Below, piece after piece: positions 1 to 56,814 of a stretch of 56,814 nucleotides of DNA. Origin of the DNA: Calothrix membranacea FACHB-236. Its GTDB lineage: Bacteria; Cyanobacteriota; Cyanobacteriia; Cyanobacteriales; Nostocaceae. The translations under genes and the position numbers were made by a program. The stretch covers positions 1 through 56,814 of the forward strand of contig NZ_JACJPX010000053.1 in NCBI RefSeq assembly GCF_014696315.1, read 5' to 3'. The stretch's first letter is position 1; every line of letters begins with the position of its first letter. The notes under the pieces are model-generated. The model was not told where the DNA came from. It made no database searches and was given only the letters and a program-made list of their open reading frames with translations.

Positions 1-207
1 CCAATCGGGGGTTTGGGGGAGAATCCCCCAATTGAGTTGGCTTTTTTAATCAGTGACAAATCAATCGCTAATGAGCTTAACCCAAGCGTATTAAACTACA
101 AGCCTTTTTTGTAGATAAATGATGCTGTTGTTTGATTGCCCTATTTTCCAACAACTCTGGGTAATCTAATAAAAAGGGGTAATTAGGAATTGGGAGCGCA
201 AAATCTG

Positions 208-762
208 ATGAAGAATGCTAGAAATCGTTGGATGTTGGCTATTAACTCAGCGGTGATGGTAGGAATACCAACACTACTATTTTTAGCATTCTCCCATCCG
301 GCAACATCTCAAGATTTGGGAAGCTGTTTTATGGTTACTCCCTCTGGGAGAACTATCAGTTTAGGAAAGCTTTGTGGTGTCACACCCCCAGATAACGGAG
401 TTTTTCGGGTACCAATCAAACGCCGAATAGGTAAAACTCCTGTGATTGATGTGACTTTTAATCAGCAACAAACCTTTGAAATGATTTTAGATACAGGTGC
501 AAGTAGTACCCTCATAACGCTTAAAATGGCGGCTAATCTGCAACTCCGACCCACAGGTAAAATAAACGCCCAAATTGCAGACGGTACTGTAGTGCAATTT
601 TTGACTAGTCAGATCAAAGATATTAGTGTTGGTGGAGCTGTAGCTAATAATATAGAAGTTGCGATCGCACCCAAAGCTAGTATTGGTCTACTAGGTCACG
701 ATTTTTTTGACAACTACGACATCAAGATTTTAGAAAAAGAAGTGGAATTCCGCCAGCGCTAA
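208..762 (+). CDS. Secreted retropepsin-like aspartic protease
   Basis: Predicted clan AA (retropepsin-like) single-domain aspartic protease of about 184 residues, probably exported. The ATG at 208 starts a typical signal sequence (basic start, hydrophobic stretch ending near HPATS). An upstream in-frame TTG at 190 would add only six residues and has no better ribosome site. The catalytic DTG lies in ILDTGASSTLIT (Asp about residue 95). A glycine-rich flap-like region follows, and the hydrophobic GLLGHDFF block near the C-terminus is typical of the family. Such proteins act as homodimers, each chain giving one Asp. The substrate is unknown. The gene stands alone and is followed at once by a repeat element. 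Confidence 0.8.
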   Translation: MKNARNRWMLAINSAVMVGIPTLLFLAFSHPATSQDLGSCFMVTPSGRTISLGKLCGVTPPDNGVFRVPIKRRIGKTPVIDVTFNQQQTFEMILDTGASSTLITLKMAANLQLRPTGKINAQIADGTVVQFLTSQIKDISVGGAVANNIEVAIAPKASIGLLGHDFFDNYDIKILEKEVEFRQR

Positions 763-773
763 AGTGCAAGAGG

Positions 774-889
774 CTAGTACCGCAAGGCGGAATTCAAAAT
801 TCAAACAGAGTAAGCTTTTTGTTGATTTTGTAGACGCAAAGCAGCTTCCCGTGGGGTATGGTCTGTTTATTTACGCCGTGCTGTACTAG
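774..889. repeat. MITE-like element, copy 1
   Basis: This starts with CTAGTACCGCAAGGCGGAAT and ends with TTTACGCCG...GTACTAG, so the ends form an imperfect inverted repeat around CTAGTAC. The same ends and core (GTAAGC.TTTTG, TGGTCTG.TTATTTACGCCG) recur at 25253-25366. This copy carries about 26 extra bases near 830-856 (GACGCAAAGCAGCTTCCCGT) that the other copy lacks. No coding capacity. Most likely a non-autonomous transposable element. Confidence 0.7.
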
Positions 890-979
890 TTTTTTACTCA
901 GCAACATCACTTGCGCGATTGCCGGGAAACCCGTTTAACATAGTGGCTCCTCAGCGCTCAGCACTATTAAGACTAACTC

Positions 980-1363
980 TTAAAACTTGTATCCTCTAGC
1001 AAGCCAATATTGCCAGTCTGCAAGTGCTTCTTGGGTGTCTTCATCAGCATCTAATGCTTCTATTTCTGACAGCTTTGCCGAAAATATATCTTCATCGTCG
1101 CCACCAGGATAGACTACTTCAACATACATATCTTTTAAACAATCATCGTCAGGTGCCATTGCTAAAACTTCGACTTGTTTCTCTTCAATGACTCCTGTTT
1201 TGCGTGCTTTCTTTTTCAACTTGGCGTTAAAGGGAAAGTTCAGGGTATCGTCTAGGTAGTAGTACCAACCCATCGCCCGTTCCTCTTTATCATTACCAGT
1301 ATCGGCAATGATCTCTGTTTCAATGCGACTCTCGCGAGTTTCATCCCTTTCAACATTAGGCAT
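980..1363 (-). CDS. CcbP-like calcium-binding protein
   Basis: Acidic protein of 127 residues resembling the cyanobacterial CcbP calcium-binding family. In Anabaena, CcbP sequesters Ca2+ and is degraded during heterocyst differentiation. Visible features are the block MGWYYYLDDTLNFPF (about residues 31-45), a middle part with basic residues, then the acidic runs MAPDDDC and YPGGDDEDIF and a C-terminal WQYWLARG. It has no signal peptide and no EF hand, as expected for CcbP, which binds calcium through a surface of acidic residues. It stands alone between a repeat and a long intergenic region. The family assignment is by recognition. Whether this copy works in heterocyst control or is a paralogue cannot be told from sequence. 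Confidence 0.7.
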   Translation of the reverse strand: MPNVERDETRESRIETEIIADTGNDKEERAMGWYYYLDDTLNFPFNAKLKKKARKTGVIEEKQVEVLAMAPDDDCLKDMYVEVVYPGGDDEDIFSAKLSEIEALDADEDTQEALADWQYWLARGYKF

Positions 1364-1518
1364 AAAATCCAGGCTTGCATAGGATAAATGTTCAAATATG
1401 TATACCTTGTTGGCGATCGCCTGTCAATTTCTTATGACTTCTCTGGACTAAAAACTCCAGGCGTGTTTTAGGCTAATTCCTCCATTTTTTGGTTTTTAAG
1501 CGATAAATCACCTAAATT

Positions 1519-1551
1519 AGACCCCCGGCTTTTTGAAAAAGTTAGGGGTCT
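1519..1551. terminator. Hairpin, possible terminator
   Basis: AGACCCC is repeated in inverse as GGGGTCT, with an inner CTTTTT/AAAAAG match, giving a two-part stem. It lies 150 bases upstream of the CcbP-like gene, so it is not that gene's terminator. Its role is unclear. Confidence 0.4.
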
Positions 1552-2148
1552 GGACAGCAACTTTTGCTTCAGTCAGTGCTATTCACCAATCAAGTGTGGT
1601 CTAGTTACACAAACTAGGCTCGCGCAAGCATACCTTTACAAGTTGAGTGAGTTGAGTCTTGTGTAGCGCTAAAACAGTGTTACTCTACCCCCAGAGTATT
1701 TTGTATCACTTCAAAAATAAGATATTTGTCTTGCCATCTCTGAATAACCTCTATTTCATCAAGATAGAGAGTATTAAATTTAACTTTAGGTATTTTACTA
1801 TCATATATCAAAGTATTTTTTTTAAAGGAGGCAATAATTTTCTATATATTTTTGATAAAATCTTGAAAAACAAAGATTTTCATGCCACAGATATAAAACA
1901 TTTTGGTAAAGCTATTATAAAATTTATTTAATTTTTGAATAAGTTTCAGTAAAATTTTTTGTAATTTTAGCCGTGTATTTTTCGGTAATTACACTTACTG
2001 ATTGCGGCAACAAGAATTTCTAACTTTGGTAATTAAGTTTGCACAAAATGAGAATGACTCACCTGGGTACTTGCCTATATCGTATTAATCAAGCGAGGAG
2101 AAAAGCAAGCTAACTAACGGCAAACAACTCGCGAAACTAATAAAAACC

Positions 2149-2153
2149 AGGAG
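2149..2153 (+). promoter_or_regulatory. Ribosome binding site of first peptide gene
   Basis: AGGAG stands nine bases before the ATG at 2163. This is the strongest ribosome site in the cassette and supports this small gene as real. Confidence 0.7.
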
Positions 2154-2162
2154 ACTTTAATC

Positions 2163-2381
2163 ATGTCTAACGAACTATTTACCGCAGTATCCGTTGAAGA
2201 ACAAGAAATCGTAGCTGGTGGTGGTACTCTAGCTTCTCTGGAATCATTAAGCGCAGTTTTCAGCAATACAAAAGCCTTTGGTTTTACAAAGACTGGGCCT
2301 AATAATGCAGAATCAGGTGCTGGCTTCGAGAATACTAATCTTTCATTGGCTACTCTCAAAGGTGTGCTTGGAATAATTTAA
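2163..2381 (+). CDS. Double-glycine leader peptide (bacteriocin-like precursor 1)
   Basis: Precursor of 72 residues with a leader of the double-glycine type: MSNELFTAVSVEEQEIVAGG. The leader carries the acidic, hydrophobic pattern recognised by C39 peptidases, and cleavage is expected after Gly19-Gly20. The released core of about 52 residues is rich in Ser, Gly, Asn and Leu, with no cysteine and no obvious modification motif, and ends in the hydrophobic VLGII. It resembles the small bacteriocin-like precursors common in Nostocales. The C39 exporter gene downstream (3023) is the likely processing and export partner. Killing, signalling or another role cannot be told from the sequence. Confidence 0.8.
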   Translation: MSNELFTAVSVEEQEIVAGGGTLASLESLSAVFSNTKAFGFTKTGPNNAESGAGFENTNLSLATLKGVLGII

Positions 2382-2508
2382 TGCAGTTTGCCTTCCAAAA
2401 CTCTGCATTCAGTCAATGATAATTATTCTTGACTTACAATTATCAAGAGTTGTTTTCGATGACTTTTATCATTGCTCAGTGATTTAAATCTCTAGCAGCA
2501 CACAAATC

Positions 2509-2562
2509 AATGAAACGACCTCTGTGTAATCCATACTTGTGGTGAACTAAGGTCGTTTCATT
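2509..2562 (+). promoter_or_regulatory. 13-bp hairpin between the two precursor genes
   Basis: AATGAAACGACCT at 2509-2521 is the exact inverse of AGGTCGTTTCATT at 2550-2562, with a 28-base loop. It sits after precursor 1 and 54 bases before the start of precursor 2. There is no long T-tract after it, so it could be an attenuator, a processing site or an mRNA stabiliser that sets the ratio of precursor 1 to the export genes. Confidence 0.6.
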
Positions 2563-2615
2563 ATCCATATAAATATGAGTTGGTGCGGAAATTAAAATTT
2601 CTAAAAGGCAACATT

Positions 2616-2939
2616 GTGTCTAACGATATCAACCTCAAAACTTCTGATTTATTCTTGGATTTGTCTGAAGAAGAACAAGCCTCTATAGTTGGTGGAATTT
2701 CTAGTTCACAATTTGCTTTCTACTTCCAAATGAGACGGATTATCTCTTTAGCTGGAAGTCAAACAAGTATTTCTACAGGTGGACAAAATCTTTCTCTTAG
2801 CCAACAATCTAATGCCGCATATATGTCTTCAGAAATTACCATTGGTGTGAATCCATCTTTTTTTGCTGGGGGAAGTATTCAGAGTAGAAACAGACGCTTT
2901 AATAGCTTCTTACGCTTATTATGGTCAATTATGAATTGA
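2616..2939 (+). CDS. Double-glycine leader peptide (bacteriocin-like precursor 2)
   Basis: Second precursor, 107 residues from the GTG at 2616. This start is chosen because AAAAGG lies seven bases upstream and because the new N-terminus, MSNDINLKTSD, then matches the MSNELF start of precursor 1. The upstream in-frame TTG at 2580 is less likely. The leader ends in LSEEEQASIVGG, a clear double-glycine site. The core of about 80 residues has no cysteine, is rich in Ser, Gln and Asn, contains FAFYFQMRR soon after the cleavage site and has a basic C-terminal part (QSRNRRFNSFLRLLWS). The core is unrelated to that of precursor 1. No maturation enzyme lies nearby, so the peptide is probably exported unmodified after leader removal. 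Confidence 0.75.
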   Translation: MSNDINLKTSDLFLDLSEEEQASIVGGISSSQFAFYFQMRRIISLAGSQTSISTGGQNLSLSQQSNAAYMSSEITIGVNPSFFAGGSIQSRNRRFNSFLRLLWSIMN

Positions 2940-3022
2940 TTATATATTCTTGAAAAATTTTTAATCACATAGCACTAAATCGATAGTTTTCTAAATTGCC
3001 GGATGTGTAAAGTAGCTGGCTT

Positions 3023-5173
3023 ATGAAATATAAATTTGTCAAACAGCATAGTGAAGAAGATTGCGGGGCTGCTTGCCTAGCTACAATTGCTAAACATTAT
3101 GGGCATAATTTTACTCTCAGCCACATCCGAGAAGCTGTAGGTACGGGACAATTTGGTACTACCTTATTAGGGTTAAGACGCGGCGCAGAAATATTAGGCT
3201 TTAATACTCGTCCTGTTAAAACTTCACCAGAACTGTTAAACCGGATGCATGAAGCACCCTTACCAGCAATTATTCACTGGAAAGGGAATCACTGGGTTGT
3301 TTTATATGGTAAAAAGGGCAAAAAATGTTTAATCGCTGATCCGGCTGTAGGGATTCGCCATCTTTCTAAAAAAGATTTGGCTGAGGGTTGGACAGATTGG
3401 TTAATGCTATTACTGGAACCAGATCCAGTCAGATTTTTTACTCAAAAGGATGATAATATTGGTGGCTTTTGGCGCTTCTTTAAACGTGTTTGGAATTATC
3501 GCGCAATTCTAGCACAAGCTTTTCCACTGAATTTAATATTGGGCTTACTCTCTTTAGCTTCTCCATTTTTATTACAAATCCTCACGGATGATGTTTTAGT
3601 TCGCGGGGATACTAGCTTACTAACTACTGTGGCAATATCTGTAGTAGTAATGAATTTTATTTCTAGTAGCCTTTCATTTGTACAATCTAATTTAATTGCT
3701 AACTTTGCTCAACGCTTGCAATTAGGGATGGTAATGGAATTTGGCAGACAAATTCTGCGATTACCTTTAACTTATTATGAAACTCGTCGTAGTGGAGAAA
3801 TAGTTAGCCGATTACAAGATATTGAACAGATAAATCAATTAGTAGCGCAAGTAGTTGTGGGCTTACCTAGCAAGTTTTTTATTGCAATCATATCTTTAGG
3901 ATTGATGATTTTTTATAGCTGGAAATTAACTATGGTAGCAGTCTTCATCTCTATATTTATGACTCTATCAACAATAGTGTTCCAGCCCACATTGCAGCAA
4001 AAAACTCGCGAATTATTAGTTACAGAAGCTGAAACCCAAGGACTTTTAGTAGAAACATTCAAAGGCGCGCTGACTCTCAAAACTACTGCGTCTGCTCCTC
4101 AATTTTGGGATGAACTACAACACCGATTTGGTCGTCTTGGGAATCTCACCTTTCGCACCATGCAGATTGGTATTATTAATAATACTTTTTCTGGGTTTAT
4201 TTCTGCGATTGGTGCAGTTGTTTTGCTGTGGTTTGGTGGTAACTTAGTAATTAATCCCACAGAAAACCTCAGTATTGGGCAATTAATGGCGTTTAACTCC
4301 ATGAATGGGAATTTTTTGGGGTTAATTGCTACTGTTATTAGTTTTGTGGAAGAATTTACGCGGGCTAAAACTGCTACACAACGCCTAACAGAAGTTATTG
4401 ATGCTACTCCAGAAAATGAAGGTGACGGACGCAAACCTTTAGCTTATATTGCCAATGATGCTGATATTAACTGTACTAATCTCAGCTTCCATTATGCTGG
4501 TCGCCTGGACTTGTTAGATAATTTTTCGTTAACAATTCCAGGTGGTCAAGTTGTGGCATTAATTGGTAAATCTGGTTGTGGTAAAAGTACTTTGGCAAAA
4601 TTAATTGCTGGTTTATACCAACTGCAATCAGGTAATATCCAAATTGGTATATATAACATCCAAGACCTTTCTCTAGATTGTTTGCGTCAGCAGATTGTGC
4701 TAGTTCCCCAAGATGCTCACTTTTGGAATCGTTCTATTGTCGAAAACTTCCGTTTAGGAACGCCGCATATTAGCTTTGAGCAGATTGTCAGAGCTTGTCA
4801 AATTGCTGGAGCCGACGAATTTATTAATAAATTCCCAGAGAAATATCAAACTATTTTAGGAGAATTTGGTGCCAATATCTCTGGCGGACAACGCCAACGA
4901 TTAGCGATCGCACGGGCTATTGTTACAGATCCACCAGTATTAATTTTGGATGAATCCACTGGTGGACTCGATCCAGTCAGTGAGGCGCAGGTTTTGGATC
5001 GGCTGTTTGAGCATCGCCAAGGTAAAACCACCATTTTGATTACACACCGCCCCAAAGTAATTAACCGTGCTGATTGGGTGGTTTTGCTAGAAAACGGCAA
5101 ATTAAAACTGCAAGGTTCCTTAAAAGATTTGATATCCCAACCAGGTGACCATCTAGATTTTCTCATTCCTTAG
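3023..5173 (+). CDS. Peptidase-containing ABC exporter (C39 type)
   Basis: Protein of 716 residues that should cleave double-glycine leaders and export the peptide with ATP. Domain order: N-terminal C39 cysteine peptidase (residues 1 to about 130), with the catalytic triad readable as Cys14 in EEDCGAACLA, His90 in GNHWVVLYG and Asp106 in IADPAVG; a transmembrane domain of about six helices (roughly 165-440); and a nucleotide-binding domain with Walker A GKSGCGKST (about 514), signature SGGQRQR (about 620), Walker B VLILDES (about 640) and the H-loop ITHRPK. The length is normal for the family. All catalytic residues are intact. It starts 83 bases after precursor 2, and the HlyD gene follows after 29 bases, so the four genes look like one transcription unit. 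Confidence 0.93.
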   Translation: MKYKFVKQHSEEDCGAACLATIAKHYGHNFTLSHIREAVGTGQFGTTLLGLRRGAEILGFNTRPVKTSPELLNRMHEAPLPAIIHWKGNHWVVLYGKKGKKCLIADPAVGIRHLSKKDLAEGWTDWLMLLLEPDPVRFFTQKDDNIGGFWRFFKRVWNYRAILAQAFPLNLILGLLSLASPFLLQILTDDVLVRGDTSLLTTVAISVVVMNFISSSLSFVQSNLIANFAQRLQLGMVMEFGRQILRLPLTYYETRRSGEIVSRLQDIEQINQLVAQVVVGLPSKFFIAIISLGLMIFYSWKLTMVAVFISIFMTLSTIVFQPTLQQKTRELLVTEAETQGLLVETFKGALTLKTTASAPQFWDELQHRFGRLGNLTFRTMQIGIINNTFSGFISAIGAVVLLWFGGNLVINPTENLSIGQLMAFNSMNGNFLGLIATVISFVEEFTRAKTATQRLTEVIDATPENEGDGRKPLAYIANDADINCTNLSFHYAGRLDLLDNFSLTIPGGQVVALIGKSGCGKSTLAKLIAGLYQLQSGNIQIGIYNIQDLSLDCLRQQIVLVPQDAHFWNRSIVENFRLGTPHISFEQIVRACQIAGADEFINKFPEKYQTILGEFGANISGGQRQRLAIARAIVTDPPVLILDESTGGLDPVSEAQVLDRLFEHRQGKTTILITHRPKVINRADWVVLLENGKLKLQGSLKDLISQPGDHLDFLIP

Positions 5174-5202
5174 TTAATACTCATTTTCAGAGGGGATATG
5201 AT

Positions 5203-6612
5203 ATGCTCTACATCCATAATCAGAAAGTCCTACCTGAAGTCCAAGAAGATTTTATTCCTCCTGTGAGTGCTTGGACATCATTAGCAGGAATTTTTCTTGT
5301 TGGTAGTTTTGGTTCTGCGATCGCCCTCTCTTCATGGGTGAAATATAATGTCACCGTTAAAGCTCCAGCCAGTATCCGTCCTACTGGTGAACTTCGGCTA
5401 GCACAACCGAAAATGGAGGGAACTATTAAACGGATTTTGGTGCAAGAAAATCAAGTGGTTAAGCAAGGTGATATTATTGCTTACCTTGATGATGAACAAT
5501 TACAAATTAAAAAGAACCAACTGCAAGGGAATATTCAACAGGGTAGGTTACAAATAGATCAAATTGATGCTCAAATCAAGAATTTAGATAGCCAAATGCA
5601 AGCAGAAAAGACAGTAATTGAGCGGACTGTAGCTGCAGCTGAATCTGATTTAGTACGTAACCAAAGAGAGTATCAAGAACGTCAAGTTATAACTCAAACC
5701 GACTTACAAGTAGCAGAAGCTAATTTGCAAAAAGTCTACACAGATTTGCAAAAAGCTCAAGCTGATTTGGACTTTGCAAATTTAGACCGCGATCGTTATG
5801 AACAATTAGCAAAAGAAGGTGCTATTGGTAAGCGAGAATTTGAGCAAAAAAAATTCTTAGTTGAACAGACAAAAGCTGTTGTTGAAGGTGAGAGAAAAGC
5901 TGTTGAGATAGCTCAGGCTAAAGTGGAATCAGCCAAATCTGCAATTAATCCCACTAATGCAACAGTCGCAATAGCTAAAGAACGGATTGCTCAAGAAGTT
6001 GCTAGAGGTCAAGCCAACATTGCTACCTTAAATAAAGAAAGACAAGCTTTAATTCAGCGACGAGTTGAAATTCAATCCCAATTGATGCAATTTCACAAAG
6101 AACTTGAGCAAGTTTTCAATCAACTACAAAACACTGTTATTCGTGCAACTACTGAAGGTACTATCCTTAAGCTCAATTTACGCAATCCCGGGCAAGTTGT
6201 GGGTGCTAGTGATGCGATCGCAGAAATTGCACCTAGCAATGCACCTTTAGTAATTAAAGCCATGATTCCCACTCAAGATATTAAAAGTGTAGAAGTTGGT
6301 CAAGAAGTACAATTACGAATAGACTCTTGCCCTTATCCTGATTATGGTACTCTCAAAGGAGTTGTGAATACAGTTTCTCCAGATGTAATTACATCTCAAA
6401 ATAACAGTACAAATTCTCCAACATCTAGTTCTAATGTTCTGGCTGCTGGCTATTTTGAGGCTACTATCGCACCAGAAAGTTTAGTATTCGGTCATCAGAA
6501 ACATCAGTGCCATATCCAATTAGGTATGGATGCTAAAGCTTATATTATTTCTAAAAGAGAAACAGCACTGCAATTTATGTTGCGAAAGGCAAGATTAATT
6601 ACTGATATATAA
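5203..6612 (+). CDS. HlyD-family membrane fusion protein
   Basis: Periplasmic adaptor of 469 residues. It joins the inner-membrane ABC exporter to an outer-membrane channel of the TolC type, which is not encoded in this window. One membrane helix (about residues 25-45) is followed by a lipoyl-like half (PKMEGTIKRILVQENQVVKQG), a long coiled coil rich in Gln, Glu, Lys and Ala (about 100-310), the second lipoyl half (TTEGTILKLNLRNPGQVV) and a beta-barrel part. AGGGG lies seven bases before the ATG. The 29-base gap from the exporter gene indicates co-transcription and a shared role. Confidence 0.9.
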   Translation: MLYIHNQKVLPEVQEDFIPPVSAWTSLAGIFLVGSFGSAIALSSWVKYNVTVKAPASIRPTGELRLAQPKMEGTIKRILVQENQVVKQGDIIAYLDDEQLQIKKNQLQGNIQQGRLQIDQIDAQIKNLDSQMQAEKTVIERTVAAAESDLVRNQREYQERQVITQTDLQVAEANLQKVYTDLQKAQADLDFANLDRDRYEQLAKEGAIGKREFEQKKFLVEQTKAVVEGERKAVEIAQAKVESAKSAINPTNATVAIAKERIAQEVARGQANIATLNKERQALIQRRVEIQSQLMQFHKELEQVFNQLQNTVIRATTEGTILKLNLRNPGQVVGASDAIAEIAPSNAPLVIKAMIPTQDIKSVEVGQEVQLRIDSCPYPDYGTLKGVVNTVSPDVITSQNNSTNSPTSSSNVLAAGYFEATIAPESLVFGHQKHQCHIQLGMDAKAYIISKRETALQFMLRKARLITDI

Positions 6613-6952
6613 ATCAGTATATTTCATCTAAGCCAAATTCTCTGTGTAGTCAGTTAACAAAAAATAAGAAAGTATAAAGCGTACATATATTTGTACGAAA
6701 ATTTCAAAATAGAGCTATATTTAGCGTTTAAATAGTTGATTGTCTGGGTTTAGGCAATCAAGACTTTTATTTGCAAAGCACCAAGATTTATTTAATCATT
6801 AATCTATTAAAAATTTATGCATATTTTTGTAATTATCATCAATCTTATGAGCAGTTTTCTTATTCAATTTAAACATTTCACCAAATATAAATCTGATATA
6901 TTTTGCTTTAAAGCTTTATTTACTCGGCATAAAATACCCATCCAAACTTCCT
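6613..6952. other. Intergenic region after the export cassette
   Basis: About 340 AT-rich bases. It holds a likely terminator (6736-6770) for the cassette. I see no gene; short open frames here have low-complexity AT-rich content. Confidence 0.5.
6736..6770 (+). terminator. Probable rho-independent terminator of the export cassette
   Basis: TTGATTG (6736-6742) pairs with CAATCAA (6755-6761), with a 12-base loop, followed by GACTTTTATTT. It is correctly placed 120 bases after the HlyD gene. The stem is short and AT-rich, so termination may be partial. Confidence 0.5.
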
Positions 6953-7660
6953 GTGAAACTGCTATTGTGGACGCAAGTTATACTTTTAATAGCCAGCTTC
7001 ATAACCCTCCTCTGGTTTATCAACTCTGAATTAAGAATTCGGCAAGCATTAAAATGGTGGTCTTATCAAGAGTCGATAAAACGATTTTTAGAAGCTGAAA
7101 AAATTCGGGATGATATATTGCAGGAATCTTTTATTATCAGGCGCAATCTAGAAATGTTAACAGCAGATAATTTAGATTTATCAGTTAACAAAATTCAAGA
7201 ATCTGTTAAAAAAATTGACAGGTTCCATCACTCTTTGGTGGAATTGAGCGATCGCTTATTTCCATCGCAGCTACAGTATAGCTTGCCGTTAGCGATTGAT
7301 TGTTTATTACAGTCTAGGCTGACGAATCATTCTCAGTTCTCTTTTCACAGTGATATGCCAGTAATCTGGCAAAATCAGTCAACCGAACAAAGCTTAGTAA
7401 TTTTAAGCTTATTAGAGGAGTTGCTTACAATAGCTTTGCCGCAAGTTTTAGCACCTGTATCAATTTATATTAATTTAAAGCAATGCAAGAATTTATGCCA
7501 TTTAATGGTACAAATTACTTATCCGGATGTATCTACACGTGTTTCTTACGCTAATCTACGAGAATTAAAATATTTATGTGACAGCTTTTACCTATTAACT
7601 TCGGGTAAATGTTTTTATCGTAGTACCAGCCTCATGCTAACTTGGTATTTCTACTGGTAA
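6953..7660 (+). CDS. Membrane-anchored protein, degenerate sensor-kinase-like
   Basis: Protein of 235 residues starting at GTG. One N-terminal membrane helix (about residues 4-24) is followed by a helical region whose pattern, AEKIRDDILQESFIIRRNLEML, recalls the dimerisation helix of NarX/DesK-type kinases. A second helical part (HHSLVELSDRLFPSQLQ) also fits the helical bundle. The expected phospho-accepting His is missing (Gln or Asp stand in the right place), and no N, G1 or G2 ATP-binding box is visible in the C-terminal part. I infer a kinase-derived protein without kinase activity, perhaps a modulator of the regulator at 8057. It may also simply be an unknown family. The ribosome site is weak. 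Confidence 0.5.
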   Translation: MKLLLWTQVILLIASFITLLWFINSELRIRQALKWWSYQESIKRFLEAEKIRDDILQESFIIRRNLEMLTADNLDLSVNKIQESVKKIDRFHHSLVELSDRLFPSQLQYSLPLAIDCLLQSRLTNHSQFSFHSDMPVIWQNQSTEQSLVILSLLEELLTIALPQVLAPVSIYINLKQCKNLCHLMVQITYPDVSTRVSYANLRELKYLCDSFYLLTSGKCFYRSTSLMLTWYFYW

Positions 7661-8056
7661 GTATCAGTTATCATTACTATCAGCAGTCTCAATTGAAGAA
7701 CTCTAGATCGTCAATTTGATAATTGCTCAGGGCATCTTCCTTTGTCAATAACATAATTACAAATTATACAATCATAAATTCAGCGTTTTTTCTGATAAAA
7801 ATTAACAGTCTAGCTTCAAATAGCTGCTTTTACTTCGACTGATTGCTAAGTAGAGAGTCAGAAATACTAGCCCTTAATTTCCTGAATTTCCTTTTTATCC
7901 TGCGATTTTCTGTAATTTATCAATATTTGCAAGGAAATGCTGTGAATAGGCATGAAAAGAATAACAAATGACAAAAAAACACAATTTTCATCTGTATTGC
8001 TATAGGCAGTAGATGAAAACTTAGTATTTACTTAGTTCGATAATGAGGTGTTAATT
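7661..8056. other. Intergenic region before response regulator
   Basis: About 390 AT-rich bases with no gene, tRNA or clear repeat that I can see. It presumably holds the promoter of the response regulator at 8057. Confidence 0.4.
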
Positions 8057-8734
8057 ATGACACAACTTGCAGTAGAAAAGAAATTGCTAACCATTTTGGT
8101 AATTGATGATCATGAATCAGTTCTAGGTGGAACCGTTGATGTACTGAAAAAAAAATATCCTAGTGCTAAATTCATGACTGCAATCAATGCCAAGAACGCT
8201 CTCGAGCAGATGATGACATCACAGGCAGACCTTGTAGTGATGGATCTATCAATGCCAGAACACCCTGGAACAACAGCACGTCCTGATACAGGAATTCAAC
8301 TTCTCAGGAATCTGATGAAATCTTATCCGCATTTAAATATTGTTGTTCAAAGTGCCCATGCTCGAACTTTAGTCAGAATTAGACCTGAGATTGATAGTCA
8401 TAAAGGTGGTTTTACAGTTGCAGATAAAAGCCTTTCCACCCAAGAAATGTTAACTAGAGTTGATTGGGCATTACAGGGATTAACTCATACTAAAGATATC
8501 AAAGGTATCAATTCGGGTTTAGAGGTGAAACCAGAGTGGTTGAAGGTACTAACTTTAGCATTTGAAGAAGGTTTACAAGATAAGACGATCGCAGAAAGAA
8601 TGTGTATGTCTGAACGCATGGTGCGTCATTACTGGAATAAGCTACAAGATGCTTTAGATGTTTACCCAGAAGAAGGTAAAAATATCCGCATTCAAACGGA
8701 AATGAAAGCTAGACATGAAGGGTTAATTGATTGA
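8057..8734 (+). CDS. NarL-type response regulator
   Basis: Two-domain regulator of 225 residues. The ATG at 8057 is preferred over the GTG at 8048, because GAGG (8045-8048) sits eight bases before it. The receiver domain has the acidic pair DD (17-18) in LVIDDHES, the phospho-accepting Asp63 in LVVMDLSMPE and Lys in VADKS. A C-terminal helix-turn-helix of the LuxR type is seen at EEGLQDKTIAERMCMSERMV. The helix-turn-helix departs from the usual LuxR consensus (no LTxRExEVL), so this is a divergent subgroup. It lies between the kinase-like gene and the CHASE2 kinase, which is its likely phosphate donor. Confidence 0.85.
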   Translation: MTQLAVEKKLLTILVIDDHESVLGGTVDVLKKKYPSAKFMTAINAKNALEQMMTSQADLVVMDLSMPEHPGTTARPDTGIQLLRNLMKSYPHLNIVVQSAHARTLVRIRPEIDSHKGGFTVADKSLSTQEMLTRVDWALQGLTHTKDIKGINSGLEVKPEWLKVLTLAFEEGLQDKTIAERMCMSERMVRHYWNKLQDALDVYPEEGKNIRIQTEMKARHEGLID

Positions 8735-9235
8735 CCATAGTCAAGCTTTATTTAGGTGCTGTTTCTGTGCAATATGAAATATTTAGTTCGTAATGGCACA
8801 AGTAGTAAGACAAAATTAATTACACAACTTATTTAGACAATGTCATTACGAATACAACAAAGCCAAACTTTTCCATTCGCCTTTGGTGTTCCCGCAGAGT
8901 AAGCAGCTTTGTTGAAGAATAATGCTTTCAGCAAATATTTAGTACTCTTTGGGAAGACCAAGGGCGATCGCATTTAATGTAAATATTTTTTTCTATTTAC
9001 TTATATAGCTCATACCCATTGTTATCTAGTCCAACACTTAGATATAAAATTAAATCAGGATTTGGGTAATTCCCCATATTGAAGATTCACTATTGCTTAG
9101 GTCTTATTTGTAACCACAAGCAAATTGAAGTCAGAAAAATGTAATATGCATTTGTGAATAATCATTAATTTTTGAATAATGGTGAATTATTATCGGTGAT
9201 TTTTATTTAATAACTAAAAACTAGGAAACTGGTTT
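8735..9235. other. Intergenic region between regulator and sensor kinase
   Basis: About 500 AT-rich bases. It contains inverted GTAATG/CATTAC motifs near 8790-8850 and a short fragment (TTCCCGCAGAGTAAGCAGC, near 8888) like the one nested in the MITE copy at 774. No gene is visible. Confidence 0.4.
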
Positions 9236-11119
9236 ATGCGGCCTGGAATTTGGAGAAGAATCAAAGAGGAAATCTCCATTTGGCGTGTAGGAACGCTGCC
9301 CGGGATTGTAGTACTTTGTCTAGTTATCATTGTTCGTCTGACTGGTGCAATGCAATCTTTAGAGTGGCTAGTGTTTGATAGTTTCCTCCGTCTACGTCCT
9401 GTGGAATCTACAGATGAACGAATTGTAATTGTTGGTATTAATGAAGATGATATCCATAATTTTGGATATCCCATCTCAGATCAAGACATGGCAAGTCTGT
9501 TACAAAAATTGCAGGCTTATGCTCCTCGAGCCATCGGCGTTGATGTTGTTAGGGATATACCAGTTGAGCCAGGCTCTGCTGAACTAGTCAGTACATTTCA
9601 ACAGCATAAAAATTTAATTGGCATTGAAAAGGCATTACCTGTAACCATCGATCCACCACCATATTTACCTGATGCACAAATCAGTTTTGTAGATCAAATT
9701 CCAGATACGGATGGTAAATTAAGACGCAGCCTACTAGGAACAATTACACCTAAAGGATACAAATTTGCCTTATCTCTGAAGTTAGCAGAGATGTATTTAG
9801 CTAATGAAGGCATTCAGTTAAAATATGGATTTGGCAATCGCAACTCGATATGGGTTGGTAATATCCAACTACCTCGCGTCTACAGCAACTCTGGTGGATA
9901 TGTGCGAACCGATGCGGGTGGATTTCAGGTATTACTCAACTTTCGTAGTGGCCAAGAACGATTTAGAACGGTGACCCTTGGCGATATCAAAGCAGGAAGA
10001 TTCCAGCCTGAGTGGATACGCGATCGCATTATAATTATCGGCATGACAGCCCCTAGTGCGAAAGACTTTACCACGACTTCTGCTATTCCGTCGGCACAAT
10101 TTGCACCACCAGGCCAAGTTTATGGCGTAGAAATTCATGCTAATGCTGTTAGCCAAATTATCAGCGCAGTTCTCAATTCTCGACCCCTATTAAAGACTTG
10201 GGAAGATGAATGGGAATATCTTTGGATTATTGCTTGGGGTTTTTTAGGAATTGCTCACGCTAGGCTAACTAAATTACCTTTGCTCAATCTTGTAACCATT
10301 GCTTTTGCTAGCTTTATTCTCGTTTTTGTGGCTTATATATTTTTAATTGGGGGTTGGTGGATTCCATTAACACCAGCCATAATTATTTACACTTTAAATT
10401 CTCTAGGACTCACCGCTTTATACCAATATGAACAAGCTTTAAAAGCTGAAATTAATGCCCATTATACGATGATTGAACGCACATTTGAAACCATTCATAA
10501 TGGGCCTCTGCAAACTCTAGCTAAAGTTCTGAAATTAGTTAAAGAACAGAACTTACCCGCAGATATATTACTACCTGAAATTGAAAAAGAACTAGAAAAA
10601 TTAAATTACGATCTGCGGGGGATTTATGAATTCTTGCAACGGGAACCTGTAAACCAAGATAAAAGTTTATATTTAGGACAAGGGTTAGTGATCAACTTAC
10701 ATGACCCGGTTCACCAAATTCTTTATCAAGTTTACAGTTACACCTTAGAGCGAGACTTTCCCTGCTTTAAAACTATCAAAGTGAAAATTCGCACATTTGA
10801 ACCTATCGAAGATAAGGGATTGAGTATTGAACAAAAAAGAGGACTCTGCCGATTTTTAGAAGAAGCATTATGTAATGTTGGCAAACACGCCGCCGGAGTC
10901 ACCCGTCTTGAAGTTAATTGTTCTTCATCCGAAGGCTGGCACACGTTAAGTATTATAGATGATGCATTAGCTATTAGTTCTTATAAAGAAGGCCGAGGCA
11001 CACAACAATTTAGAAATTTAGCTCGACAACTCAAAGGCAAATTTCGGCGGGTTTCTCTGTCTCCTAGGGGTACTCTTTGTGAACTTTCTTGGCCAGCTAA
11101 CAAGTTTTGGTTCTATTAA
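9236..11119 (+). CDS. CHASE2-domain sensor histidine kinase
   Basis: Membrane sensor of 627 residues. An N-terminal helix (about 22-40) leads into an extracytoplasmic CHASE2 domain (about 45-330; GVDVVRDIP and the IIIGMTA block are typical). Two or three more membrane helices follow (about 330-405). The kinase part has the phospho-accepting His421 in IHNGPLQTL, an H-box of the HisKA_3/DesK kind, then an ATP-binding domain with an N-box-like EEALCNVGKHA and a reduced G-box (GRGTQQFRNLA). It is probably the partner of the NarL-type regulator just upstream. The ligand is unknown; CHASE2 domains sense external or envelope signals. Confidence 0.85.
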   Translation: MRPGIWRRIKEEISIWRVGTLPGIVVLCLVIIVRLTGAMQSLEWLVFDSFLRLRPVESTDERIVIVGINEDDIHNFGYPISDQDMASLLQKLQAYAPRAIGVDVVRDIPVEPGSAELVSTFQQHKNLIGIEKALPVTIDPPPYLPDAQISFVDQIPDTDGKLRRSLLGTITPKGYKFALSLKLAEMYLANEGIQLKYGFGNRNSIWVGNIQLPRVYSNSGGYVRTDAGGFQVLLNFRSGQERFRTVTLGDIKAGRFQPEWIRDRIIIIGMTAPSAKDFTTTSAIPSAQFAPPGQVYGVEIHANAVSQIISAVLNSRPLLKTWEDEWEYLWIIAWGFLGIAHARLTKLPLLNLVTIAFASFILVFVAYIFLIGGWWIPLTPAIIIYTLNSLGLTALYQYEQALKAEINAHYTMIERTFETIHNGPLQTLAKVLKLVKEQNLPADILLPEIEKELEKLNYDLRGIYEFLQREPVNQDKSLYLGQGLVINLHDPVHQILYQVYSYTLERDFPCFKTIKVKIRTFEPIEDKGLSIEQKRGLCRFLEEALCNVGKHAAGVTRLEVNCSSSEGWHTLSIIDDALAISSYKEGRGTQQFRNLARQLKGKFRRVSLSPRGTLCELSWPANKFWFY

Positions 11120-12038
11120 TAATTTAAATTTATATCACTCTTGTCCCATTTGAGAACTGGAGCTTCTCAAAAAGAATAATTAATAGTATTAGATTTTACA
11201 TTAAAACAGATTATACAAAACTCAGGTTATAAACTACCCGATGTTATAGTTTATATTTCTTATTTATAAATTTAGTTGTACAGTCTCGACGGTAAAAGCG
11301 TTTGACATTTATGTTTACACACCTGTAAAGCACTTAATAATTCGATGTTTGTAACTATATAGTTGGCTTATCTCGCCTTAGCCAGTAACCTCAATGAGGA
11401 ACTGGTATAATTTATGTGAGATAATTGGTTGCTATGCCTTAAATATAAATTATTCAAATTATGGCTTGTATACTCTATTACCTAAAAGAATTTACATCTT
11501 CTTTAAATTTAATTACATAAAGACTTTATATCTAATGATAGATGCTTTTATATGCTTGTATAAGTATACTAGAGTGGGCTTAAGCCAAATTATATCTACA
11601 CACGGGCAAAGCCATTTGCTGACACAAATACAGATGGAGTAAATTCTAAGATTAAGATATTCCGTTCATTTATAACAATTAGGTAGTTTTCTATCAGAGA
11701 ATAGGATTAATAAATTACCAATTTTTAAATTACCTTTTGGGTGCAGACTACTGATAAATACAGATTCAGTGCAATATTCCTAGCTTTCACTTATCAATGA
11801 TAGTTGGGTTAATTGCCTTGAAATTAAAGGCAAAAATTAAGTTTAGTAATTAAGCACTGAACTGTTAATAAGTAGGCTAGATTCAACCAAACTATATAAA
11901 ATTTTATAGGGTGAAAGGAAAATACTTTTCCCTGGACTATTCTAAAAATAGTCATGTGCGATCGCTAACCTACTTATTCATACATAATTTGTCAAAAGTT
12001 TTTTGATAATTTCCCCGTGCAATGCCGGAGGCTTAACA
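11120..12038. other. Long AT-rich intergenic region
   Basis: About 900 bases without a convincing gene. An open frame at 11394-11642 has low-complexity AT-rich content and no good ribosome site. A possible small membrane protein gene starts at the end (12039). Confidence 0.4.
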
Positions 12039-12349: not shown

Positions 12350-13006
12350 TTAAACATCTACAGGATGCTGTCCATAGTAAGGTAAAGCCTCAGACCAATG
12401 CGGACGCTTTCCTTGTTGCCAATCTAGATAAGCTAGTTCCAAAATATTAGTGACTGTTGTTGCTAACGCAGATTTTGCTTCAATTAATTGGTAAGTTGTC
12501 TGCCAATTTGCCAAAGTCTCTTGCCATGCTTCAGGTGTAAACACACTATCTACCAATAATGTTGTGAGATTGGAATTATCAGCATTAGGTTGATAAATAG
12601 CACCAAAAACTTGACCTCGTTGGGCTGCCATTTGAATAGCGATCGCATCTTTTTTGGTAATATTATCTTTTGCACTCCAAGCGACTGCGGCTAAAGTAGA
12701 TACTGCAAACACAGGAATTTCTAACTGTTGTCCTAATGTCCGTGCTAAAACTACACCAATCCTGGTACCTGTAAAACCACCAGGGCCTTTAGCCACTGCC
12801 AAAAAGTCTATATCTGACCAAGTTTGTGGCTGAATAAATTCAACTAAGTATTGATGAACAAAGCTGGATAAATCACGCCCCAAATTCCACACTTGAGAGC
12901 GAGTATCACCAGCAAAATTATTAATTGCTAGTCCTAATTCAGGGGTTGTAGTGTGCAGTGCTAAACCGTATTTTGTGACTGCAAGGTTTTCTAGTTCAGT
13001 ACTCAA
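12350..13006 (-). CDS. tsaB: tRNA threonylcarbamoyladenosine biosynthesis protein TsaB
   Basis: Protein of 218 residues, the non-catalytic ASKHA-fold partner of TsaD in making the t6A37 modification of ANN-decoding tRNAs. Visible features are the N-terminal ALHTTTPELGLAI (phosphate-loop-like strand pair) and the conserved block AVAKGPGGFTGTRIGVVLARTLGQ (split by function: KGPGGFTGTRIG is the family hallmark). The start appears to be a TTG at 13006, because no ATG or GTG occurs before the first conserved strand. The length is typical. It stands alone on the minus strand. Homologues in cyanobacteria are universal housekeeping genes. Confidence 0.9.
   Translation of the reverse strand: MSTELENLAVTKYGLALHTTTPELGLAINNFAGDTRSQVWNLGRDLSSFVHQYLVEFIQPQTWSDIDFLAVAKGPGGFTGTRIGVVLARTLGQQLEIPVFAVSTLAAVAWSAKDNITKKDAIAIQMAAQRGQVFGAIYQPNADNSNLTTLLVDSVFTPEAWQETLANWQTTYQLIEAKSALATTVTNILELAYLDWQQGKRPHWSEALPYYGQHPVDV

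Positions 13007-56713: not shown

Positions 56714-56814
<101 letters not shown>

Follow-up and report, generated by a model that had tools for sequence, protein, structure and literature searches.

Three-component class II bacteriocin and competence systems of Gram-positive bacteria bring together double-glycine peptides, a C39 exporter, an accessory protein, a kinase, a regulator and promoter repeats. Here we describe a locus of the cyanobacterium Calothrix membranacea FACHB-236 in which two double-glycine precursor genes, p1 and p2, and their exporter genes are joined by a two-component signalling module and a conserved promoter element. The locus lies on contig NZ_JACJPX010000053.1 of an 8.81-Mb draft genome; this whole contig of 56,814 nt is referred to below as the window. 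Like the Gram-positive regulons, it links a kinase and a regulator to the exporter and precursors and has a shared cis element before the precursor genes; unlike them, it has a CHASE2 kinase and a putative pseudokinase in place of a polytopic peptide receptor, a regulator of NarL type, and an HlyD protein and an outer membrane in the export path.

The closest described relatives are cyanobacterial. Wang, Fewer and Sivonen (2011; PMC3140520) reported, in the part of the paper available, 145 double-glycine cassette clusters in 58 cyanobacterial genomes, and their group III clusters have, as here, a short-type C39-ABC exporter, an HlyD protein and several small double-glycine precursors without a second ABC transporter or LanM. 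By this likeness, drawn by setting gene architecture against the published description, the exporter, adaptor and precursors are of an already described type, in keeping with the original prediction that such families are known in cyanobacteria. Unlike here, the available part of that paper describes no two-component module or shared promoter element for group III. In Synechococcus elongatus, EbfG1-4, PteB and EbfE (PMC4997328, PMC9981879) offer a second parallel, likened by description only, in which small unmodified double-glycine proteins share a transcript with a C39 exporter that helps to secrete them; the accessible passages mention no linked regulator, and the 2016 paper terms the regulation unknown. 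This system acts in biofilm, and EbfG1-3 are reported there to form amyloid. HetC of Nostoc PCC 7120 (PMC10986499) is likewise a peptidase-containing ABC transporter of heterocyst-forming cyanobacteria, but the portion available describes it as lacking an adjacent membrane fusion protein and any known substrate. For the CTB family, to which p1 is assigned below, phosphate depletion induced one Nodularia cluster and left another uninduced, according to the available text of PMC9846622.

Comparison of related loci shows a set of genes kept in a conserved order, an element placed ahead of the precursors, and element and module occurring together. On these comparative grounds the best reading, and a probable one, is a two-component-regulated peptide-secretion unit. 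Its components are as follows.

2024-2057, plus strand: conserved promoter element with its core GGTAATTAAGTTTGCACAAAATGAGAATGA at 2028-2057 (matrix and family-wide pattern search)
2163-2381, plus strand: p1, CTB-family double-glycine precursor of 72 amino acids with a 20-amino-acid leader (NF038167)
2616-2939, plus strand: p2, double-glycine precursor of 107 amino acids with a 27-amino-acid leader and its own conserved core family (core family and alignment)
3023-5173, plus strand: short-type C39 peptidase-ABC exporter of 716 amino acids (PF03412, PF00664, PF00005)
5203-6612, plus strand: HlyD-type membrane fusion protein of 469 amino acids (PF13437 above cut-off)
6953-7660, plus strand: kinase-like membrane protein of 235 amino acids without phospho-His and N-box Asn, a putative pseudokinase (linkage, conservation and model)
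8048-8734, plus strand: NarL-type response regulator of 228 amino acids (PF00072, conserved Asp residues, DevR)
9236-11119, plus strand: CHASE2 sensor histidine kinase of 627 amino acids (PF05226, 2e-64; His421, Asn547, Asp575)

The original prediction of two small double-glycine genes before an intact C39 exporter and an HlyD adaptor was borne out, as all four genes are open frames on the plus strand within 2163-6612. The boundary at 6612 was too short, however, since the signalling module (6953-11119) and the element (2024-2057) belong to the locus; the conserved unit of element, precursors, exporter, HlyD and then three signalling genes is about double the length first noticed. By exporter, the closest named loci are those of Nostoc linckia FACHB-104 and Nostoc carneum NIES-2107 (98% identical), and where the exporter is at least 75% identical, most relatives carry the three-gene run 3' of HlyD on the same strand. 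The upstream neighbours, an aspartyl-protease-like and a CcbP-like gene, hold their position solely in loci L039 and L040, and the next downstream genes solely in L039-L042. Because the flanks are reshuffled and the module is kept, the unit is taken to run from about 2024 to 11119.

Conservation of the module was followed through a family comparison set of 145 genomes, in which the counts of exporters and regulators rest on the matches listed (150 exporters and the best 89 regulators, down to 64% identity). The kinase-like gene lies 3574-4503 nt from the start of an exporter at least 77% identical, on the same strand, in 78 of 94 places. Its presence follows exporter identity: among the exporters listed, it accompanies all 7 with an identity of 90% or above, 47 of 58 at 80-89%, 24 of 36 at 75-79% and none of 49 at 65-74%. 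The regulator lies 4189-5753 nt downstream of the exporter start in 80 of the best 89 places.

In relatives the element takes the form GGTAATTAAGTTTGCA-N-AAAATGAGAATGA before the first precursor, followed about 25 nt further on by an AT-rich TATTAA-like stretch; in the window the 30-bp core sits 105 nt 5' of p1. A matrix was trained on 22 distinct sites, picked for being before precursors and excluding the window, whose own site scores 52.2 bits, against 12.0 for the next window site and a maximum of 6.3 in 10 shuffles. The family-wide pattern search, in which the window site has no mismatch, found 41 sites with up to three mismatches in 36 of the 145 genomes, and none with the reversed control. 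All but one of these (40/41) are followed on their own strand, after 620-2980 nt, by an exporter of this type, distances being scored against 36 exporters among the matches listed; the 41st, in genome G038, precedes a solitary double-glycine precursor by 110 nt. Across the order the element was present in 25 of 388 genomes, every one of them from this family (71 genomes) and none from the remaining 317 (family members counted by hand). A precursor start follows 52 of 53 strong matrix sites, compared with 110 of 3000 random positions, 2 of 6 sites scoring 20-30 and 2 of 10 scoring 12-20, and the proportion is 22 of 23 for strong sites outside the training set. The distance from site to precursor start is 74-120 nt (median 105, 52 sites). 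On this sequence evidence the element is a putative activator site. The following finer features can be proposed within and beside it.

Within 2024-2057, plus strand: candidate regulator-bound stretch GGTAATTAAG...GAATGA (proposed)
1981-1991, plus strand: upstream half-site copy TTYGGTAATTA, 44 nt before a copy at 2025-2035 (copies 91% identical)

The two-copy repeat of the half-site could be chance. Several further sites are recorded here for themselves. The G038 orphan precursor (L179:7940-8143, minus strand) has its element at L179:8254-8287, and no exporter of this type was found in the 18 kb fetched around it. At L063:7702, the 23rd untrained site, the exporter start comes immediately after the element and no precursor intervenes, as if precursors had been lost. 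Weaker copies at L111:7691 and L111:8361 precede remnants of double-glycine precursors interrupted by stops, as though arrays were decaying where they stand. Weak minus-strand sites at window 11488-11521 (12.0) and L040:11850 (20.4) lie at equal distance behind the kinase gene; having no precursor behind them they were rejected as real elements and treated as chance, as were matrix matches in L043 and L044 (20-23 bits), which coincide with the beginning of an ordinary open reading frame.

Co-occurrence of element and module, the latter scored as any one of the three signalling genes, was examined in 87 loci (80 named loci, the window and six fetched mainly for a missing nearby kinase-like match), 14 of which were unscorable. 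Among the 73 scorable loci, 45 carried both, 26 neither, two the module only and none the element only. The two without a strong element are L073, with a weak site of 18.8, and L109, whose match (32% to CHASE2) is probably not the module. This pattern bears on an explanation by passive linkage, in which the triad of signalling genes is a bystander by shared ancestry and the element is bound by another regulator. All loci with triad and element do fall within one exporter clade, the triad also occurs elsewhere alone, and gaps of 341-502 nt separate its genes. We nevertheless judge this unlikely, because the module stays while the outer flanks reshuffle, because six exporters nested in the clade bearing both (L067, L071, L080, L085, L176 and L177) have neither module nor element, and because the orphan site in G038 couples the element to precursors.

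Some observations do weigh against a regulated secretion unit. Independent co-losses are few, such that three pairs agree and none oppose (p 0.25 or more), and L096 keeps the element and the kinase-like gene with no regulator or kinase within 10 kb. The kinase-like gene is not nearby in 23 of the 101 listed exporters at least 75% identical, some of them at contig ends. Finally, p1-type cores are poorly conserved and diversify, and from their sequences the cargo would point to no single function.

The three signalling genes differ in how readily they can be classified. For the protein encoded at 9236-11119, no Pfam match to a kinase domain was obtained and the closest solved sequences, the VraS and DosT kinases, are weak matches (E 0.03-0.07); His421, Asn547 and Asp575 are each kept in 37 of 40 aligned relatives. 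The regulator keeps Asp20, Asp21 and Asp66 in 57 of 57, and its nearest solved relative is DevR, across both domains (residues 15-204). The 235-amino-acid protein at 6953-7660 reached no family cut-off in profile scans. Its model (pLDDT 88.2) matches histidine kinases including DesK and RetS with E about 1e-6, at TM-scores of only 0.3-0.4. In a hand alignment on the LQ motif Arg52 takes the phospho-His position, His92 is the sole His conserved at 90% or more, and the Asn of the N-box is missing; it is on this alignment and conservation that we call the protein a pseudokinase. A plausible model for this protein is RetS, a kinase reported to block a partner by forming a pair with it.

Away from the exporter, 12 of 13 fetched far places of the 235-amino-acid protein carry all three genes (L160-L168 and L170-L173, two of the 16 far places, G027 and G094, being left out). 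Because the triad is also found standalone, the peptide locus probably joined a pre-existing signalling module. As a separate observation, the triads at L166:8511-15616 and L173:1442-9484 adjoin, in convergent order, a C39 exporter and an HlyD protein that are unrelated, with identities of about 30% and 24%.

The sensor domain bears on a further explanation, closed-loop signalling, in which an exported core is sensed by the adjoining kinase pair and boosts its own expression as in the Gram-positive regulons. The presence of precursors, C39 exporter, kinase and regulator side by side within a single conserved unit, an element common to the precursors and the relationship of the exporter to ComA all fit such a loop. 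However, the outward-facing CHASE2 domain, present in the window kinase, is absent from 19 of 44 linked kinases (one of these, L062, being an inverted fragment) and retained in 12 of 12 standalone triads, and the precursors vary while the module is kept. No CHASE2-like open reading frame was found within 3 kb of the CHASE2-less linked kinases, and on the exporter tree the absence needs at least five changes among 43 loci. This repeated loss speaks mildly against CHASE2 as sole peptide receptor. It would still allow sensing within the membrane or through the exporter, as in some other kinases without an outer sensor. Overall, closed-loop signalling is possible but rather doubtful.

The precursors themselves inform on what the probable two-component-regulated unit secretes. 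The p1 leader is MSNELFTAVSVEEQEIVAGG and the p2 leader ends in SIVGG, the start of p2 being set at GTG 2616 since relatives align from there. Cysteine-free cores had been claimed, and there is indeed no Cys in p1 or p2; lanthipeptide-type maturation was rejected for this reason and for the absence of any such gene in 1-11119. The claim that the two are mutually unrelated is true of the cores (best blastp E 1.1 across 5 amino acids, no meaningful similarity) and fails for the leaders, which are alike (47% across 17 amino acids, E 0.003). Against the CTB family bacteriocin model NF038167, p1 passes the curated cut-off of 32 at 39.4 bits and p2, with its own conserved core, stays under it at 21.6. 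Across the 145 genomes, p1-like proteins occur in 26 and p2-like proteins in 60, and such small genes do stand beside C39 exporters: a related exporter adjoins 30 of 31 p1-like places and 53 of 62 p2-like places, all of these on the same strand, which exceeds chance.

Two dissimilar cores behind one exporter had suggested either a two-peptide product or a shared secretion line. The former, taken as an antimicrobial two-peptide bacteriocin of p1 and p2, draws on the NCBI name of the p1 family (CTB bacteriocin), the adjoining genes and the diversifying p1-type cores. That name is annotation, and the literature passages available on the family give no activity test. Moreover, module-bearing loci hold from one to five p1-like candidates (by a loose leader pattern search whose counts include doubtful frames, as in L042 and L063) and a p2 that is single or absent, its core occurring in 26 of 46 such loci, so there is no fixed 1:1 pairing; nor was an immunity gene recognised in the conserved unit, where a small novel type could escape notice. 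We therefore rejected a fixed two-peptide (class IIb) bacteriocin, the two precursors not being kept as a pair, and consider an antimicrobial role for the two together very unlikely. A shared secretion line fared better, with arrays of several precursors before one exporter and the G038 orphan behind the same element. In all 25 loci that have p2 and pass a length filter, no other gene stands between p2 and the exporter.

Profile searches with both cores, as proposed with the original prediction, diverged in outcome. A profile from full p2 sequences drifted to other double-glycine precursors via the shared leader and was rebuilt from cores alone, giving a p2 core family of 32 sequences in 31 loci. 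Run against 5.8 billion proteins, the p2 profile gave 24 matches, among which the named organisms are, judged from names, filamentous heterocyst-forming cyanobacteria and EbfG does not appear by name. The p1 core alone as a profile matched, at threshold, solely itself, and the kinship of p1 accordingly rests on its leader and NF038167. PF28158 is precomputed for some p1-like and p2-like proteins, and in a weak AlphaFold model (pLDDT 62.4) p2 forms four strands with a helix at the C-terminus. One structural feature lies between the two genes.

2509-2562, plus strand: hairpin between p1 and p2 with a 13-bp perfect stem (z -4.10; 0 of 200 shuffles as good), a putative processing or attenuation site

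Elsewhere in the same genome, contigs C119 (L035:4642-5644), C113 (L036:134-1117) and C40 hold several CTB-family precursors. No exporter match was listed in the fetched stretches of C119 and C113, whose precursors may use exporters in trans, and none of the precursor stretches on the three contigs has the element at 13 bits or more.

The exporter consists of C39 (PF03412, 1.4e-37), membrane and ATPase domains only, without a CAP_ED extension. Residues 2-709 align to the solved PCAT1, with the motif DCGAACL, and the competence-peptide exporter ComA is a further solved relative. HlyD scores 158.9 bits against TIGR01843, under the cut-off of 208.65. The claimed absence of maturation, immunity and TolC genes from the window holds as far as 1-11119, the part searched for these, and genes for OEP (TolC-type) proteins lie on other contigs of the genome, C2 and C143, with weaker candidates besides. 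A third close exporter of the same genome (contig C38, L030:2351-4495, 65% identical) had no HlyD or double-glycine precursor nearby in a loose scan of its 11-kb contig. At L159:6505-9175, near a contig end, a p2-type precursor, HlyD and the kinase-like gene stand in a row with no exporter between. The surroundings of the unit in the window comprise the following.

190-762, plus strand: aspartyl-protease-like protein, just upstream of the cassette
980-1363, minus strand: CcbP-type calcium-binding protein, just upstream of the cassette

Downstream, we take the genes at 12350 and 13748 to be TsaB and PAP from reading of their sequences alone, and the last stretch of the window (56714-56814) is the beginning of a 16S rRNA gene, likely an assembly break at a repeat.

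Under the two-component-regulated reading, the CHASE2 kinase would phosphorylate the response regulator, which would bind the element and switch on the p1, p2 and exporter genes, and the kinase-like protein would tune the CHASE2 kinase, probably by pairing. From what is known of these families, the C39 domain would cleave the p1 and p2 leaders behind the double glycine as the peptides are transported, and the cores would leave through HlyD and a TolC-type protein whose gene lies elsewhere. The hairpin may give a surplus of p1 transcript over exporter transcript. In the literature searched, mostly titles and abstract openings, we found no description of the linkage to the module, of the element shared among loci, of the orphan precursor behind it or of the repeated loss of the sensor.

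As to the role of the cargo, we lean by analogy towards the community or the cell surface, with p1-type peptides as the fast-changing part, because EbfG/PteB, the one studied cyanobacterial counterpart, acts in biofilm. More tentatively, heterocyst-forming cyanobacteria may possess a peptide-pheromone or autoinduced-bacteriocin regulon in which the pseudokinase-partnered module drives precursors behind GGTAATTAAGTTTGCA-N-AAAATGAGAATGA, orphans included, and CHASE2-less lineages read the signal via the membrane or the exporter. With a named regulator, one specific site of 30 bp and a tight spacing of 74-120 nt, the circuit can be tested directly, and the element can locate orphan precursors away from exporters, as in G038. 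Finally, sensor-domain loss in linked kinases set against retention in standalone ones provides a natural experiment on kinase signal input.

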